A stretch of DNA of 64,000 nucleotides from the NCBI RefSeq assembly GCF_019443405.1, contig NZ_CP080376.1:1860001-1924000 (forward strand). The letters are read 5' to 3'. A program made the position numbers and the translations under genes. Every line of letters starts with the position of its first letter. The first letter of the stretch is position 1. The notes beneath the pieces were generated by a model, which was not told the DNA's origin, made no database searches, and was given only the letters and a program-made list of their open reading frames with translations. Positions 1,934 to 56,122 of this stretch are shown here, piece after piece. The stretch comes from Brevundimonas sp. PAMC22021. Its GTDB lineage: Bacteria > Pseudomonadota > Alphaproteobacteria > Caulobacterales > Caulobacteraceae.

Positions 1934-2734
1934 TCAGCCCGCGCGCGTCTGCGGCACCGGCGCGCTTAGCGCCAGGATCGCCCCGATCGGCTGGGCCAGA
2001 CCATCCTTGGTCACGCCGCCCCCGCTGAGATAGGCGTCCAGTCCGTTCGCCGCGATCGCCAGATTGATGTCGCCGGTGCTGGCCGCCAGCGCCTTCAGCG
2101 TATCGACCTGCTGCTTGACCGCACGGGCCGCCTGCATCGGGTCTTGATTGAACTGGGCGAGTGCGGCCGCGAGGATGCGCAACGCCTGGGTTTTTGGGTC
2201 GATGGTCGTTTCATTCGACGCCGCATCGGCCTTGCGCTTGCGCGCGCCGGCGTATTCCCCCGAATTGAAGCGGCGCCGGTCGGGTCCGACATAGCCGACG
2301 GCCTCGATCCACGGCCGAGCCTTCAGTGCGACGTTCTCGATGCGCTTGAACAGGTCGCCGGCGGTGAACGGCTTGCGCAGAAACTCATGCACCCCGGCGT
2401 CTCGCGCGCCCTTGATCGAGCTGGCGGTCGCATCGCTCGTCACCATGATCACCGGGGCCGTCCGGCAGATCATGGACGAGCGCCGCAGTCGCCGCGTCAG
2501 CGTCTCGCCGTTCAGCGTCTCGCCCCGCCGTTCGGTGAACACCATCCCCGGCTCGACGTCGCGCAGCAGTTCCAGCGCCCGTTCCTCATCGCTCTCGATG
2601 AAGACCTCGCGCGAACCGATCACCTTCATGATGTCCATCAGCAGCCGCGCCGACGCCGGATTCGGGTCGGCGATCACGATCCGCCGGATGGACGGAGCGA
2701 TCCGGTTCAGCGTCTTGGGATCGGCGGCGAACAA
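1934..2734 (-). CDS. Receiver-domain protein with Glu in place of the phosphoacceptor Asp
   Basis: This 266-residue protein has an N-terminal CheY-like fold (about residues 17-135) and a C-terminal region of unknown function. The conserved Thr (VTSD) and Lys (LRKPF) are present, and one Asp of the acidic pocket (IADPNP) remains. At the phosphorylation position the sequence reads PGMVFTERRG, which aligns a Glu (E68) with the usual Asp. The protein is therefore probably not phosphorylated normally, and Glu could mimic the active state. A short YVGPDRRRFNSGEYAG linker follows the receiver domain. It ends 76 bases before purA in the same orientation. Its output partner is unknown. Confidence 0.75.
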   Translation of the reverse strand: MFAADPKTLNRIAPSIRRIVIADPNPASARLLMDIMKVIGSREVFIESDEERALELLRDVEPGMVFTERRGETLNGETLTRRLRRSSMICRTAPVIMVTSDATASSIKGARDAGVHEFLRKPFTAGDLFKRIENVALKARPWIEAVGYVGPDRRRFNSGEYAGARKRKADAASNETTIDPKTQALRILAAALAQFNQDPMQAARAVKQQVDTLKALAASTGDINLAIAANGLDAYLSGGGVTKDGLAQPIGAILALSAPVPQTRAG

Positions 2735-2809
2735 GCGGGACTCCGTGGCGACAGATCGCTCACGCTAGTCCCGCCAGGGTTAAGATGGCCTTGAGCGCCG
2801 CCGCTCGTC

Positions 2810-4102
<1,293 letters not shown>

Positions 4103-10086: not shown

Positions 10087-10587
10087 TCAGCCCTCCCATC
10101 CAGGCCAGCGAAACACCGCCGCCAGCCGCCTGCGCCACCAGACGCCCATCCAGCTCTCCACCACCGCCCGCCCCCAGTAGGCGTGGATGATCCGAGGCTC
10201 CGGCCCCGCCGCGTCGCTCAGGATCGCGCAGTGCTTGACCATCGCCTCCGGGCTCATGCGGAACAGCAGCACATCGCCGGGCCGCATCGCCTCGACCGGA
10301 ACCTCGACCAGCCACCGCCGCGCCGCCTCCAGCAGCGTCTCTTCGCACCCGACCTCGGCCCAATCGGCGCGGTACGGCGGCAGGGCTTCAGGCTCCTCCC
10401 CCACCACCTCGCGCCACACCCCGCGCACCAGCCCCAGGCAATCCGCGCCTGCGCCCTTCACGCTGGCGCCATGTCGATAGGGCGTGCCCAGCCATCCTCG
10501 CGCCGCCTCCACCACCTGCATTCCTCCCCCCTTGGGGGAGGGGGACCGCGCATCGCGCGGAGGAGGGGGCAAGACCACGCCTCTCAT
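10087..10587 (-). CDS. GTA gene 14: NlpC/P60-family peptidoglycan peptidase
   Basis: This peptidase sits at the tail tip and is expected to cut recipient peptidoglycan. The catalytic Cys lies in GADCLGLVRG and the His in MVKHCAIL; a further RIIHAYWG motif follows. The 166-residue form starts at ATG 10587, which overlaps the gene 13 stop as ATGA. Residues 7-22 (LPPPPRDARSPSPKGG) are encoded by an interspersed repeat. The family-like sequence begins at MQVVEAARGWLGTPYRHG, so ATG 10521 is a possible start that leaves the repeat untranslated. Confidence 0.9.
   Translation of the reverse strand: MRGVVLPPPPRDARSPSPKGGGMQVVEAARGWLGTPYRHGASVKGAGADCLGLVRGVWREVVGEEPEALPPYRADWAEVGCEETLLEAARRWLVEVPVEAMRPGDVLLFRMSPEAMVKHCAILSDAAGPEPRIIHAYWGRAVVESWMGVWWRRRLAAVFRWPGWEG
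10521..10574. repeat. Interspersed palindromic repeat family A, single copy, at the 5' end of GTA gene 14
   Basis: A hairpin CTCCCCCTTGGGGGAG is followed by GGACCGCG and an inverted GCGGAGGAGGGGG. This is the family A layout: C-rich/G-rich hairpin, then GGACCGCG-type stem, then GTGGAGGGG. It lies in frame between the coupled ATG at 10587 and a second ATG at 10521. Confidence 0.8.
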
Positions 10588-15116: not shown

Positions 15117-15256
15117 CCTTCTCCTCCCCATCGCTTTGCGATGGGGAGGAGGACCACGAAGTGGTGGAGGGGTTCTGTCCGCCACCCGGAACCCCTCCGT
15201 CTCGACGGCTCCGCCGCCGATCCACCTCCCCATCTCCGATGGGGAGGAGAGATGGT
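15117..15256. repeat. Family A repeat pair (two inverted half-elements) between capsid and connector genes
   Basis: The first half starts with hairpin CTCCTCCCCATCG...CGATGGGGAGGAG, then a short stem (CCACGAAGTGG), then GGAGGGG. After a spacer of about 20 bases comes the reverse complement of the same layout, ending in CCCCATCTCCGATGGGG. The pair can fold into a long cruciform. It lies inside the GTA operon and could act as a transcription pause or terminator between genes 5 and 6. Confidence 0.85.
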
Positions 15257-15272: not shown

Positions 15273-16535
15273 CTACGAGGCGGCGAACTTCATCACCTTG
15301 ATGGCGTCAAAGTTCTGCACCCCGCCGCCGACCCGCTTGGTGGTGTAGAACAGCACATAGGGCTTGGCTGAATATGGGTCCCTCAGCACCCGCACCCCGG
15401 CCCGGTCGACGATCAGATAGCCGCGCTGGAAATCGCCGAAGGCGATGGACAGGCTGTTCGCCGCCACGTCCGGCACCGTCTCGATCTCCGTCACCGGATA
15501 GCCCAGCAAGGACGCCGTCTCCCCCAGCCGCGCCGCCGGCTGCCAGATATAGGCGCCGTCCGCGTCCTTGAACTTGCGGATGGCCGACACCGTCCGGCGG
15601 TTCATCACGAACCGGCCGTTCGGCCGGTACTGGGCCTTTGGCGCATAGACCAGGTCGATCAGCCGGTCCGCCGGGCTCCCGGACGAGAATCCCCCCGCTG
15701 CCCCCGACGCCACATAGCCGATCTGGCCCCAGCCCGCCGTCGCGTCCGCCACGGTCGAATAGCTCAGGAACCCGCGAGGCTTGTTCACGCCGTCGCCGCC
15801 CACGAAGGCCTGCGTCTCCTGCGCGGCGAAGGCGTCCTCCACCTCGGCCGCCAGCCATTCGTCCAGGTCCAGCATGGCGTCGTCCAGCAACGCCTGCGTC
15901 GCCGCCGGATTGGCGTAAAGGTCCGCCGCCGGGAACTCGAGCAGCGCCAGCGTCGCCGGGTCCGTCTCCGGCCGCGCCGCCGTCTCGGCCACCCAGCCCG
16001 ACGCCACGCCCGCCGTCGACACCGGCTTGCGGAACAGGCCGGACGCCACGGTCCGCACCGTCGCGATCTCGCGCATCGGACTGGCCGCCATCAGCCTGCG
16101 CTCGATTGCCCGCTCGGTCTCGGGCGGAACCACATAGCCGCCGGACGACGCGCCGCCCGACAGCCCCGCCTTGACCTCCAGCACCTGCGGCGCCGTTCCC
16201 GTCTTCAGATAGCCGTCCCACGCGGACTTCTCCTCCCCATGGAATGGGGAGGGGGACCGCGAAGCGGTGGAGGGGTTGCCAGACCCATCACCAACGCCGC
16301 CCAGCATCGGCCGTCGCGCCTCCGCCCCGATCCGCTCCAGCCGCGCCTGCGCCTGGCTCACCGCCTGGTCGATGCGAGCGACCTTTTCCTCCAGCAGCCC
16401 GTCCGCCGCCTTCCGTTCGATGGCCGCCAGCCTCTGGTCGTTGGCGTCCTTGAACGCCTCAAACGCCGCCAGCATCTCGCCCACCACAAGGCGCGCCTCC
16501 GGCGAACCCGCCGGGGCCTGTTTGGTCTCTTTCAT
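15273..16535 (-). CDS. GTA gene 5: HK97-type major capsid protein
   Basis: At 420 residues, this has an N-terminal coiled-coil delta domain (about residues 18-75) and the HK97 capsid fold after it (MREIATVRTVASGLFRKPV, AEVEDAFAAQETQAFVGGDG, GYPVTEIETVPDV, YLIVDRAGVRVLRD). The delta domain is normally removed by the gene 4 protease. Residues about 88-103, exactly at that boundary, are encoded by a family A repeat. That linker may tolerate insertion and could move or flank the cleavage site. Confidence 0.95.
   Translation of the reverse strand: MKETKQAPAGSPEARLVVGEMLAAFEAFKDANDQRLAAIERKAADGLLEEKVARIDQAVSQAQARLERIGAEARRPMLGGVGDGSGNPSTASRSPSPFHGEEKSAWDGYLKTGTAPQVLEVKAGLSGGASSGGYVVPPETERAIERRLMAASPMREIATVRTVASGLFRKPVSTAGVASGWVAETAARPETDPATLALLEFPAADLYANPAATQALLDDAMLDLDEWLAAEVEDAFAAQETQAFVGGDGVNKPRGFLSYSTVADATAGWGQIGYVASGAAGGFSSGSPADRLIDLVYAPKAQYRPNGRFVMNRRTVSAIRKFKDADGAYIWQPAARLGETASLLGYPVTEIETVPDVAANSLSIAFGDFQRGYLIVDRAGVRVLRDPYSAKPYVLFYTTKRVGGGVQNFDAIKVMKFAAS
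16227..16280. repeat. Family A repeat inside the capsid coding sequence
   Basis: CTCCTCCCCATGGAATGGGGAGG, then GGACCGCGAAGCGG, then TGGAGGGG: a single half-element translated in frame in the minus-strand capsid gene as NPSTASRSPSPFHGEEK. It lies between the delta domain and the mature capsid fold. Confidence 0.85.
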
Positions 16536-20035: not shown

Positions 20036-20176
20036 ATCTCTCCTCCCCATTCCATGGGGAGGTGGCGCGGCGCGGAGCGCCGTGACGGAGGGGTTCTCCT
20101 CCGCCGCTCAGAGCCCCTCCGTCTCGCCGGCTCACGCCGACGATCCACCTCCCCATCGCTGCGCGACAGGGAGGAC
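20036..20176. repeat. Family A repeat pair between terminase and spike base genes
   Basis: CTCCTCCCCATTCCATGGGGAGG, a GGCGC stem and GACGGAGGGG form the first half. After about 20 bases, CCCCTCCGTC and CCACCTCCCCATCGCTGCGCGACAGGGAGGA give the inverted second half. It starts seven bases after the terminase stop on the coding strand and could terminate or attenuate transcription into the head genes. Confidence 0.85.
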
Positions 20177-25392: not shown

Positions 25393-27360
25393 ATGGCAGC
25401 CAAGACCTCGTCCAGACCTCCCCTCGTCGCCCTCAAGGACGTCCGTCTCCAGGACGGGCCCCGCCCGCTGTTCGACGGCGTCGACCTGGCGATCGAGCCG
25501 CGCAGTCGCGCCGCCCTGGTCGGCCGCAACGGCGCCGGCAAGTCCACCCTGATGAAGGTGGTCATGGGCCTGATCGAGCCGGACAGCGGCGATCGCTCGG
25601 TCCAGTCCGCCGTCCGCTTCGCCTATGTGCCGCAGGAGCCGGATCTCAGCCCGCCCTCAAGTAGCGCCAGCGATAGGGCGACAAAAGAGTGGACCCTGCT
25701 GGACTACGCCGCCTCGGGCGAGGCCGAATCCTGGACCGCCGAGGCCTGGCTGACCACCTTCGGCCTCGACCCGGCCAAGTCCACCCAAGGCCTGTCCGGC
25801 GGCGAGACCCGCCGCGCCGCGCTCGCCAAGGCCTTTGCCGAAGAGCCCGACCTGCTTCTGCTGGACGAACCCACCAACCACCTCGACATCCTGGCCATCG
25901 AGCTGCTGGAAAACGAGCTGATCCAGGCCCGCTTCGCCGTGCTGGTGGTCAGCCACGACCGCGCCTTCTTGAACCGCGTCACCGACACCGTTCACTGGCT
26001 GGAGGGCCGCCGTGTCCGCACCCTGAACAAGGGCTTCATCGAGTTCGACGACTGGTCCGCCAAGGTCATGGAGGAAGAGGCCGAGTCCCTGCGCCGCCTC
26101 ACCAAGAAGATCGAGGCCGAGACCTACACCTTTTACCGCTCCATCACCGCCCAGCGCACCCGCAACGAGGGCCGCGCCCGCGCCCTCATGGCCATGCGCG
26201 CCGACCGCGCCGAGCGGGTCAAGGACCTGCCGCGCGAGCTGAACCTGGGCGTCGATTCCGGCGCCCTCTCCGGCAAGCTGGTCGCCGACATCAAGGGGGT
26301 GTCGAAGGGGTTCGGGACAGTGGCGGGTGGCGAGTGGCGAGTGGCGAGTGAAACCGCCGCGCAGACCCAAGCCGACGATCAGGACGTGTCAACCTCGCCA
26401 CTCGCTACTCGCCACTCGCCACTCGCTTCGCATCGCACCCTCTTCAAGAACCTCACCACCCGCATCATCCGCGGCGACCGGCTGGGCATCGTCGGCCCCA
26501 ACGGCGCGGGCAAGACCACCCTGGTGCGCGTGCTGCTGGGCGAACTCGCCCCCGACGAGGGCTCCGTCCGCATGGGCGCCAACCTCGAGCCCGTCTATCT
26601 CGACCAGTCGCGCGAGGGGCTGAAGTCGGACATGACCCTGTGGGACGCGCTGACGCCCGGCGGCGGCGACAGCATCCTGGTGCGCGGCCGCTCGATGCAC
26701 GTCGCCGCTTACGCCAAGGACTTCCTGTTCTCCGAGGCCCAGCTGCGCCAGCCGATCTCGACCCTGTCGGGCGGAGAGCGCAACCGCCTCTTGCTGGCCC
26801 GCGCCCTGGCCAAGCCCGCCAACCTGCTGGTCCTCGACGAACCCACCAATGACCTGGACATGGACACGCTGGACAAGCTGGAGGAGCTGCTGGAGAGCTA
26901 CGACGGCACCCTGATCCTGGTGTCGCACGATCGCGACTTCATCGACCGTCTGGCCACCTCCACCCTCGCCCTCAACGGCCGCGGCGACATCGTCGAGACC
27001 CCCGGCGGCTGGACCGAGTTCGTGCGCCAGAATCCCGGCTTCCTGAGTGGCGAGGGGCGGGTGACGAGTGGCGACAGGAAACCCGCCGCACCGTCCGTCA
27101 GCGCGCCCCCGCCGACCGCTCCGAAGAAGCTCACCTACAAGGACGCCCGCCGTCTCGAAGAGCTCGAACGCCTGATCGAGACCCTCCCCGCCGACATCGC
27201 CCGCCACGACGCGACCCTGGCGGACCCCGACCTCTACAGCCGCGATCCCAAGGCCTTTGACCGCGCCATGACCGCCGCCGCCAAGGCCCGCGCCGACCTC
27301 GACGCCGCCGAGATGGAGTGGCTGGAACTGGAAGAGAAAAAGGCCGCCCTGTCCGTCTGA
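25393..27360 (+). CDS. ABC-F family ATPase (Uup-like), with three repeat-derived insertions
   Basis: Two ABC domains in tandem and no membrane segments define the ABC-F class, which acts on ribosomes (Uup/EttA group). Walker A motifs are GRNGAGKST and GPNGAGKTT; signatures are LSGGETRRAALAKA and LSGGERNRLLLARA; a C-terminal coiled coil (KKLTYKDARRLEELERLIE) is typical of Uup. The start at 25393 (MAAKTSSRP) is chosen; ATGs at 25354 and 25381 are in frame. Residues about 88-96, 309-345 and 551-561 are encoded by repeats and are low-complexity, unlike the conserved parts around them. Confidence 0.93.
   Translation: MAAKTSSRPPLVALKDVRLQDGPRPLFDGVDLAIEPRSRAALVGRNGAGKSTLMKVVMGLIEPDSGDRSVQSAVRFAYVPQEPDLSPPSSSASDRATKEWTLLDYAASGEAESWTAEAWLTTFGLDPAKSTQGLSGGETRRAALAKAFAEEPDLLLLDEPTNHLDILAIELLENELIQARFAVLVVSHDRAFLNRVTDTVHWLEGRRVRTLNKGFIEFDDWSAKVMEEEAESLRRLTKKIEAETYTFYRSITAQRTRNEGRARALMAMRADRAERVKDLPRELNLGVDSGALSGKLVADIKGVSKGFGTVAGGEWRVASETAAQTQADDQDVSTSPLATRHSPLASHRTLFKNLTTRIIRGDRLGIVGPNGAGKTTLVRVLLGELAPDEGSVRMGANLEPVYLDQSREGLKSDMTLWDALTPGGGDSILVRGRSMHVAAYAKDFLFSEAQLRQPISTLSGGERNRLLLARALAKPANLLVLDEPTNDLDMDTLDKLEELLESYDGTLILVSHDRDFIDRLATSTLALNGRGDIVETPGGWTEFVRQNPGFLSGEGRVTSGDRKPAAPSVSAPPPTAPKKLTYKDARRLEELERLIETLPADIARHDATLADPDLYSRDPKAFDRAMTAAAKARADLDAAEMEWLELEEKKAALSV
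25655..25679. repeat. Family B repeat inside the ABC-F gene
   Basis: CCTCAAGTAGCGCCAGCGATAGGG shares the CTCAAGnAGCG...AGCGATAGG layout with copies at 12635, 60071, 60116 and 60934. It is translated as PSSSASDRA within the first ABC domain, between the FAYVPQEPDLS motif and EWTLLDYA. Confidence 0.65.
26317..26430. repeat. GAGTGGC repeat with inverted ends inside the ABC-F gene (family C)
   Basis: Tandem GAGTGGC units (about 26318-26351) and their reverse complement GCCACTC (about 26395-26428) bracket roughly 45 unique bases. The whole block is in frame, coding for about 37 residues including GGEWRVASE and LATRHSPLAS. It sits between the linker and the second ABC domain. Confidence 0.8.
27043..27076. 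repeat. Third GAGTGGC-type repeat in the ABC-F gene (family C)
   Basis: TGAGTGGCGAGGGGCGGGTGACGAGTGGCGAC is related to the units at 26317-26351 and is translated in frame just before the C-terminal coiled coil. Confidence 0.6.
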
Positions 27361-31779: not shown

Positions 31780-31835
31780 CATTCCTCCCCCACAGGGGGA
31801 GGGGGACCGCGCGTCAGCGTGGTGGAGGGGGTCCC
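31780..31835. repeat. Family A half-element, left side of the DUF559 gene
   Basis: CATTCCTCCCCCACAGGGGGAGGGGGACCGCG...GTGGAGGGGG. It points toward the DUF559 gene, and the last codons and stop of that gene lie within it. The matching copy in reverse orientation is at 32222. Confidence 0.85.
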
Positions 31836-32179
31836 GCCGCACGCAACCGGATAAAATCCAGCACCCCAGGCAGGTCCGACAACACCTCCCGCGCCGGGAT
31901 GCGCACCACGGAGATACCCTGCGCCGCCAGCCAGGCATCTCTTCTCAGATCATGCCGCGCTTGGTTCGGGTTCTCGTGGGACGAGCCGTCGATCTCGAGC
32001 ACCAGTCGAGCGTCCGAACAGTAGAAGTCCACGATGAAAGGGCCGAACGGATGTTGTCGTCGGAATCGAACGCCATCCAAGCGGCGGCCTCGGATCGCTT
32101 GCCAAAGGAGAACTTCAGGCAGCGTCAGCGCGCGGCGCAGGTCCTTGGCGCGGGCGATTGTGCGGGCGGGCGCTTCCAT
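31814..32179 (-). CDS. DUF559 endonuclease-like protein flanked by inverted repeats
   Basis: DUF559 proteins share the PD-(D/E)XK/Vsr-like nuclease fold. The core is visible: TLPEVLLWQAIRGRRLDGV, FRRQHPFGPFIVDFYC, LVLEIDGSSH and VVRIPAREV. I start at ATG 32179 (121 residues, MEAPARTIAR); a longer ORF to 32266 reads into the right-hand repeat. The C-terminus (RAAGPPPPR) and stop are encoded by the left-hand repeat. The gene therefore sits exactly between two inverted family A half-elements. Confidence 0.85.
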   Translation of the reverse strand: MEAPARTIARAKDLRRALTLPEVLLWQAIRGRRLDGVRFRRQHPFGPFIVDFYCSDARLVLEIDGSSHENPNQARHDLRRDAWLAAQGISVVRIPAREVLSDLPGVLDFIRLRAAGPPPPR

Positions 32180-32221
32180 CAGGTTAGATGAAGTAAGCCT
32201 GCGGATCAGGCAAGTGCGCCT

Positions 32222-32281
32222 ATTCCCCCTCCACCACGCCCTCCGGGCGCGGTCCCCCTCCCCCAATGGGGGAGGAGTTTA
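32222..32281. repeat. Family A half-element, right side of the DUF559 gene (inverted)
   Basis: Read on the minus strand it is CTCCTCCCCCATTGGGGGAGGGGGACCGCG...GTGGTGGAGGGGG, nearly identical to the 31780 copy in opposite orientation. It lies between the DUF559 gene and mucR. Confidence 0.85.
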
Positions 32282-47477: not shown

Positions 47478-47632
47478 CCAAAACCCCTCCGTCACGAGGC
47501 TTCGCCTCCGCGCCACCTCCCCATCGCTGCGCGACAGGGAGGAGAAGGCGGACATCTCTCCTCCCCATCTCTGATGGGGAGGTTGATCGACGGCGTGAGC
47601 CGGCGAGACGGAGGGGTCCCCTCCCGCCCGCT
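47478..47632. repeat. Family A repeat pair in opposite (hairpins inside) arrangement
   Basis: The order is CCCCTCCGTC...CCACCTCCCCATC...GGGAGGAG, a short spacer, then CTCCTCCCCATCTCTGATGGGGAGG...GACGGAGGGG. The C-rich hairpins face each other, unlike the other pairs, where they lie at the outer ends. It lies between the ctrA terminator and trmJ. Confidence 0.85.
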
Positions 47633-54083: not shown

Positions 54084-54112
54084 GCCGGCGGCGAACGCGC
54101 CTCTTTACCCTC

Positions 54113-54249
54113 GTCATCCTAGGCCTTGCGCCTAGGATCCAGAGACTCAGGTCTGGCCTGTTCGCAGTGGGACGACACAAGGGCGGGACGGGGTCGCCAC
54201 ACGTTTGGCGCCGGGAGTCTGGATCCTAGGCACAAGGCCTAGGATGACG
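54113..54249. repeat. Inverted-repeat element, family D
   Basis: GTCATCCTAGGCCTTGCGCC near the left end and its close reverse complement at the right end (CACAAGGCCTAGGATGAC) form arms of about 31 bases around a 75-base centre. Each arm is itself palindromic (CCTAGG). The layout is like paired REP sequences. It lies between the hydrolase gene and a small leftward ORF. Confidence 0.8.
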
Positions 54250-55973: not shown

Positions 55974-56122
55974 CTCCTCTCCTCCCCATCGGGGATGGGG
56001 AGGTGGCGCGAGGCGAAGCCTCGTGACGGAGGGGTTGCGGCCGACACAAAGACCCCCCTCCGTCTCGCCGGCTCTCGCCGTCGATCCACCTCCCCATTCG
56101 CTACGCGAACGGGGAGGAGAGC
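55974..56122. repeat. Family A repeat pair upstream of the RNA helicase gene
   Basis: CTCCTCCCCATCGGGGATGGGGAGG, a GAGGCGAAGCCTC stem and GACGGAGGGG are followed after about 20 bases by CCCCTCCGTC...CCACCTCCCCATTCGCTACGCGAACGGGGAGGAG. The hairpins face outward. Confidence 0.88.

Follow-up and report, generated by a model that had tools for sequence, protein, structure and literature searches.

A DUF559 gene of Brevundimonas sp. PAMC22021 and the two inverted hairpin-repeat halves that bracket it probably constitute a single REPtron-like element, with the Vsr-like nuclease DUF559 as its only protein. Sequence comparisons indicated an association of gene and repeats, specificity of the repeat families, purifying selection on the gene, joint absence of gene and cognate halves or tails in relatives at two loci, and copying as a unit, and from these we infer that DUF559 may cleave and mobilize the repeats. 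We also lean toward a broader proposal, namely, that REP-like mobile elements include a second superfamily, independent of RAYTs and present in Pseudomonadota and other phyla, whose dedicated enzymes are the DUF559/YcjD proteins; in it, a hydrolytic Vsr-fold nuclease would excise or copy hairpin-ended DNA together with host repair, and some palindromic repeats of Escherichia coli and Neisseria would be its relics. Palindromic repeats are widespread in bacterial genomes, and the finding offers a candidate partner gene for another large and diverse set of them, a testable role for a widespread domain of unknown function (E. coli YcjD included), and a small element whose spread may be driven by a hydrolytic nuclease rather than a transposase. 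Among the open-access papers that the literature searches listed, no title or abstract opening linked DUF559, YcjD, COG2852, or PF04480 to flanking repeats.

A DUF559 gene enclosed by inverted hairpin repeats

The window analyzed here is a stretch of 64,000 nucleotides, positions 1860001 to 1924000 of chromosome contig C1 in a genome of 2.9 Mb (labelled G000). The gene-bearing element consists of the following parts.

31782 to 32276, no strand: complete gene-bearing element (DUF559 gene between one half and its inverted counterpart), with ends inferred from the L366/L368 duplicate
31782 to 31831, plus strand: left family-A half (93% complementarity over 30 nt and 85% BLAST identity with the right half; DNA fold), made up of hairpin 1 (31784 to 31802), hairpin 2 (31806 to 31823), and an 8-base tail end (31824 to 31831)
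31814 to 32179, minus strand: DUF559 gene, 121 amino acids, predicted Vsr-like PD-(D/E)XK nuclease (PF04480, E value 7.8e-31; open reading frame; family fold)
32225 to 32276, minus strand: right family-A half, in the orientation opposite to that of the left half (same comparisons and DNA fold)

Two near-identical inverted halves had been predicted to bracket a 366-base DUF559 gene, and this was borne out by the coordinates, by 93% complementarity between the left and right halves over 30 nt, and by a BLAST search with a 62-base stretch including the left half, which recovered the right half (E value of 1.1e-9, 85% identity). The open reading frame starts with an ATG at 32179 on the minus strand and stops at 31814 to 31816; the stop codon lies within the left half, as also predicted, where it falls in the loop region of hairpin 2. 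Each half folds into two hairpins (1 and 2) followed by a G-rich tail, with fold z scores against shuffles of -3.07 for the left half and -3.51 for the right half. A longer listed frame, beginning at 32266 upstream of this ATG, opens with translated repeat, and at five of the nine loci matched in viral contigs the match was confined to that opening part.

The solved folds closest to DUF559 include Vsr and the homing nuclease I-Bth0305I, the latter being second-nearest. Across an alignment of 20 diverse DUF559 proteins, E20, D49, E60, and D62 were invariant and H66 was conserved in at least 90%; we take these residues to be catalytic and EDxHD to be the family name. By fold and conserved residues, DUF559 is a Vsr-like (EDxHD) PD-(D/E)XK nuclease of predicted activity, and a dN/dS of ∼0.15 indicated that its gene is under purifying selection. 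The number of DUF559 genes per genome ranged from 0 to 9 among the 61 genomes of the genus.

Gene-less halves occur elsewhere in the window, as listed below.

10534 to 10568, plus strand: single family-A half, gene-less (pair search and pattern scan)
15143 to 15231, no strand: gene-less inverted pair of an A-type and a B-type half (pattern scan)
16246 to 16275, plus strand: single A-type half, gene-less (pattern scan)
20056 to 20154, no strand: gene-less inverted pair of two B-type halves (pattern scan)
47484 to 47616, no strand: gene-less inverted pair of two B-type halves, tails outward (pattern scan)
55997 to 56095, no strand: gene-less inverted pair of two B-type halves (pattern scan)

The original prediction had the same halves recurring in the window as inverted pairs. 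Close inverted pairs were indeed revealed by the pattern scan (15143/15192, 20056/20114, 47484/47576, and 55997/56055), with an inner spacing of ∼19 to 53 nt, but they belong to a sister repeat family and combine A with B or B with B halves, not A with A. A/A pairs are present elsewhere in the genome, for instance, at C1:675307/675369 and 270714/270778, and the genome-wide BLAST with the 62-base left-half stretch gave 45 matches at an E value of ≤10, including the window's own two.

The genome has three DUF559 genes, each adjoined by hairpins of this kind. Two are bracketed, namely, the window gene and a gene of 116 amino acids between nusG and rplK, whose halves belong to another family. The third (L002, G000:C1:2251872-2252186) is the C terminus of a RecQ helicase, with hairpins on the 3' side only. 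As in L118 (G008:C3), DUF559 is fused to RecQ after the HRDC domain and the repeats are 3' only; such fusions give the impression of an element joined to recQ.

Inverted flanks across DUF559 genes

To survey the flanks, the sequence on one side of each gene was locally aligned to the reverse complement of that on the opposite side (match 1, mismatch -2), and a score of 18 or more was the threshold for an inverted flank. The first test within the genus, covering 40 stretches of 7 to 15 kb plus the window, gave inverted flanks at 26 of 43 DUF559 genes versus 0 of 357 other open reading frames at a score of ≥20 (Fisher 9e-30) and at 27 of 43 versus 1 of 357 at ≥18. A scan of named genomes took the best 80 of 584 relatives, a choice biased to close relatives of the query, and spanned Sphingomonadales, Rhizobiales, Burkholderiales, Xanthomonadales, Enterobacterales, Desulfobacterales, SAR202 Chloroflexi, Nitrospirae, and others; among these best 80, with 4 loci dropped for short or clipped flanks, 54 of 76 DUF559 loci reached a score of ≥18 versus 3 of 325 other open reading frames, and all three of the latter adjoin the DUF559 gene of their own locus. 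Inverted flanks were also found at 13 of 24 loci in a class sample and 14 of 23 in a phylum sample, while true vsr genes from the class, which share the fold, had them in none of 24 cases with the same windows as those 13 of 24 (short or clipped flanks removed 4 of 28 class loci, 1 of 24 phylum loci, and 6 of 30 vsr loci). A cross-locus control for the class sample (32 of 552) was unusable as a null because repeats of different loci resemble each other.

In the pooled set, inverted flanks with a score of ≥18 were present at 102 of the 144 loci from the genus and at 83 of the 127 from elsewhere; 42 and 44 loci, respectively, had no match at this threshold. The genus set comprises the best-scoring 144 of 219 matches in 61 genomes, so that weaker members are under-sampled, and L317, a DUF559 gene with two stops that the profile did not match, lies outside the pooled set. 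At the 185 loci with inverted flanks, the median distance from domain to repeat was 15 nt upstream and 0 nt downstream. A second measure, a G-rich hairpin on both sides, was positive at 73 of 144 loci in the genus and 74 of 127 beyond it, compared with 2 of 350 other open reading frames and 0 of 290 located more than 700 bp from DUF559. DUF559 homologues are therefore generally flanked, with controls near zero, in line with the expectation that accompanied the original prediction, and the inverted flanks are a pattern and no curiosity.

Repeat families track the DUF559 gene

The repeats differ by locus and include CCTTCTCCC, CCCTCTCCC, CTCCTCCCC, CCCTTCCCCC, TCTCCCTCCCC, and CTCTCCGCCCC types; agreement between the repeats on either side of a gene is built into the flank test. 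Protein identity was correlated with repeat similarity among 100 genus elements (rho of 0.40, which 0 of 499 permutations reached, and 0.33 when restricted to pairs with less than 60% identity) and among 75 far elements (rho of 0.27, 0 of 499 permutations), and within single genomes the correlation was weak (68 pairs, rho of 0.29, P = 0.016). On a tree of 100 DUF559 domains, built from few columns and with many open forks, nine repeat families assigned to 87 elements (the other 13 have rare repeat families and were left unlabelled) required 12 label changes versus a shuffled mean of 44.5, and none of 200 shuffles was as low. Hairpin 2 also carries compensatory changes: across twelve units, 97.6% of cells were paired, 10 cells had double changes versus 4.0 in shuffles, and the covariation score was 0.35 versus 0.17, each unequaled in 500 shuffles, while two of the five covariation measures were not above shuffles (pairs changed on both sides, 364 of 500; further pair types, 500 of 500). 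The correlations and the tree indicated that repeat family and DUF559 gene co-diversify.

Sites with and without the element

At the nusG-rplK site, 29 of 30 genomic sites were readable (in the remaining one, L092, rplK was out of reach). Two of them, in G000 and G035, hold the gene together with its halves, and the other 27 have neither the gene, whose absence was confirmed by profile, nor A/B halves; two of these 27 hold a hairpin of another family. Repeat pairs of the CGTCATCC type were observed at this same site in L065, L066, L067, and L071.

At the L116 locus, where a run of N lies beside the left half, the gene-bearing genome is G031. Relative G045 has neither the gene nor any repeat part, with other sequence in their place, and relatives G043 and G050 lack the gene, hairpin 2, and the tails and keep a single hairpin 1. 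Since hairpin 1 is palindromic, the pair of copies can equally be read as direct repeats, and insertion into a hairpin and deletion between hairpins both fit these two genomes; deletion between the palindromic ends would explain their state as well as a pristine target would. What looks like a duplication of 21 to 22 bp at L116 is hairpin 1, a palindrome. At these two loci, the gene and its cognate halves or tails were absent together in most relatives examined, two L116 relatives nonetheless keeping one hairpin 1, and this outcome of the site comparison favors the original prediction.

The L102 locus, with the gene in G039, G048, and G009 and a diverged copy within a rearranged region in G002, is not a clean empty site, because the gene-less G055, G033, and G020 carry different repeat families there. 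One orthologous intergenic site (L304 to L306 versus L310) holds different repeat families by species and is perhaps a landing hot spot.

Copying as a unit was seen in one genome, G051 (L366/L368), which carries two copies 2.8 kb apart on opposite strands, with proteins 95% identical, one of them with a stop codon. The similarity of the copies begins and ends, within 1 to 2 bases, at the outer ends of their left and right hairpins 1, and their flanks are unrelated, which indicates that the stretch bounded by these two ends was copied. The termini are inverted, and no target duplication was evident at these copies, the one unit-wise duplication seen. DUF559 genes lie ∼2.8 to 2.9 kb apart in three genomes (L097 in G029, L098 in G016, and L366/L368 in G051). 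Among 167 pairs of relatives with at least 70% identity, 158 were compared (nine were left out for short flanks), of which 105 share their site and 53 do not, the pairs being non-independent.

Relation to known systems and alternative explanations

The likeness to REP sequences and their RAYT transposase that the original prediction had drawn held up, in that inverted bracketing, gene-less doublets, and co-diversification of repeat and protein were all found. As in REPtrons (REPIN-RAYT systems with the HUH tyrosine transposase TnpA-REP), a short gene is bracketed by palindromic repeats, though not at every DUF559 locus, gene-less inverted doublets are many, and the repeat family tracks the clade of the resident gene. 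For instance, 28 of 34 family-K hairpins in G044 lie in plus/minus pairs 118 to 142 bp apart, start to start (counted by eye), and one such pair adjoins a DUF559 gene. Unlike in REPtrons, the enzyme is a Vsr-fold PD-(D/E)XK nuclease (PF04480) and not an HUH Y1 transposase, and the half in this genus is mostly two hairpins and a G-rich tail, with no GTAG tag. MITEs and insertion sequences share with the DUF559 element terminal inverted repeats and forms with and without a gene, but the DUF559 element has no known transposase and no target duplication evident at the G051 copies.

CGTC-tagged REPs of Alphaproteobacteria are, according to their description (PMC3733652), palindromic repeats of the same bacterial class, often dimeric, with a CGTC tag followed by a stem starting with AT; the same source reports no dedicated partner enzyme for them, whereas GTAG REPs have RAYTs. 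DUF559 repeats differ from them in sequence and anatomy. CGTCAT/ATGACG occurred in 4 of 185 DUF559 repeats versus 3.9 in shuffles and CGTC/GACG in 49 versus 93, and CGTCATCC was near 12 of 271 loci, mostly in apparent coding sequence and not as flanking pairs. Neither these tag counts, which are not above shuffles, nor the position of CGTCATCC gave a link to CGTC REPs.

The main rival of the element model is a homing-endonuclease-like variant, in which the repeats spread otherwise and DUF559 genes lodge among them by cutting a repeat pair or palindrome that is then repaired from a gene-bearing copy. We regard it as unlikely, even though the homing nuclease I-Bth0305I ranks second among the nearest solved folds, the gene is placed between the halves of a repeat pair, gene-less pairs are common, and at the site of the gene-bearing element of G031 just one hairpin 1 stands in G043 and G050. 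The 27 of 29 readable nusG-rplK sites without gene and halves speak against it, as do the G051 copies, whose identity ends at the outer hairpin ends and not in flanking homology; moreover, the hairpins are not destroyed by insertion, and the family-by-family match of gene and repeat would require a separate nuclease for each foreign repeat family. Unlike I-Bth0305I, DUF559 genes were seen with no intron or intein, and they are flanked by hairpin repeats that also disperse gene-less. It is quite improbable that DUF559 is a Vsr-like housekeeping enzyme of host repair or hairpin processing, with the hairpins as terminators, autoregulatory sites, or passive insertions. Purifying selection and the RecQ fusions would suit such a role, as would VsrA, the DUF559 protein of Caulobacter crescentus, which one report places in the DNA damage response and proposes to be a mismatch endonuclease (PMC12907096). 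However, vsr genes proper lacked such flanks and other open reading frames had almost none; both ends share one repeat family, which differs between DUF559 clades; at nusG-rplK, sites have either both gene and halves or neither; and a patchy presence of 0 to 9 genes per genome is unlike housekeeping. The DNA-breaking activity of VsrA could instead be that of an element-borne nuclease. Lastly, a RAYT or other transposase might move gene and repeats in trans, as RAYTs are thought to do for GTAG REPs (PMC3116915 and PMC8266576). This we hold to be highly improbable: the Y1 transposase profile (PF01797) matched in 1 of 61 genus genomes and had no match in G000, which largely refutes a RAYT of this family as the mover in this genus, and GTAG/CTAC is rarer than in shuffles (21 of 185 DUF559 repeats versus ∼59).

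If gene and halves are indeed one element, DUF559 would recognize the hairpins of its own family when they are extruded, either in single-stranded DNA during replication or as cruciforms, and would nick or cut at the base of hairpin 1; the released DNA might then be reinserted or copied by host repair. Gene-less inverted pairs would be non-autonomous passengers that DUF559 serves in trans, the role proposed for RAYTs toward REPINs. To our knowledge, no strand-transfer chemistry is known for a hydrolytic nuclease alone, which counts against the element model. Further points against it are the 42 genus and 44 other loci below the flank threshold, the two hairpin 2 measures that stayed within shuffles, the lone hairpin 1 of G043 and G050, the foreign repeat families at L102, the nonsignificant copy-number tests, and the repeats of G041, a genome with no DUF559 match. 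Copy number did not clearly follow the cognate gene and gave trends only (P = 0.16 for family K and P = 0.057 for family A/B, in tests on the best-scoring 144 of 219 genus matches; P = 0.065 in an earlier test on 76 loci). Four genomes with no DUF559 match had the following copies of two families: 0/0 in G024, 1/9 in G013, 5/16 in G025, and 20/20 in G041. Such genomes suggest that the repeats can outlast or be independent of the gene, or that the gene was missed.

DUF559 genes of E. coli and Neisseria

The ycjD gene of E. coli K-12 encodes a DUF559 protein (167 bits) and, like VsrA, shares the domain of the window gene. Hairpins of the DUF559-repeat type lie directly downstream of ycjD, and the upstream hairpin is unrelated, so the gene is not bracketed (inverted score of 8). 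The downstream repeat may correspond to the E. coli "box C" repeats, beside envM/fabI, although a literature search on this point yielded no paper. A 71-base stretch with this repeat occurred at a median of 17 places per genome in 5,375 of 5,426 E. coli genomes, and the ycjD region was at least 80% present in 3,362 of 5,426. Flanking copies of ∼119 bases, with CCCTCTCCCTGTGGGA or a close variant, were found at a Neisseria DUF559 gene, in direct and not inverted orientation. The downstream-only repeats of E. coli and the direct copies of Neisseria count against the element model.

Three ycjD-less E. coli regions that were fetched had a TetR/RND operon next to fabI instead and were not simple empty sites, so that E. 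coli was rejected as an empty-site model; consistently, a published account describes ycjD as the gene in place of the eef operon (PMC12817139). DUF559 proteins also appear in print as the proposed mismatch endonuclease mentioned above and as a PD-(D/E)XK query (PMC1189080), and the available portions of these three sources (PMC12907096, PMC1189080, and PMC12817139) make no link to repeats.

In E. coli K-12 (L275, positions 2640 to 3420), the hairpins downstream of ycjD enclose a second copy of part of the gene's 3' end, which resembles a deletion remnant of a second element.

Other repeats in the window

Further inverted repeats were observed in the Brevundimonas window. Positions 54112 to 54249 hold an inverted pair of a CGTC-type repeat (beginning CGTCATCCTAGGC), unlike the DUF559 repeats, and positions 26319 to 26423 hold inverted arms of a AGTGGCGGGTGGCGAG-type repeat, 45 nt apart.
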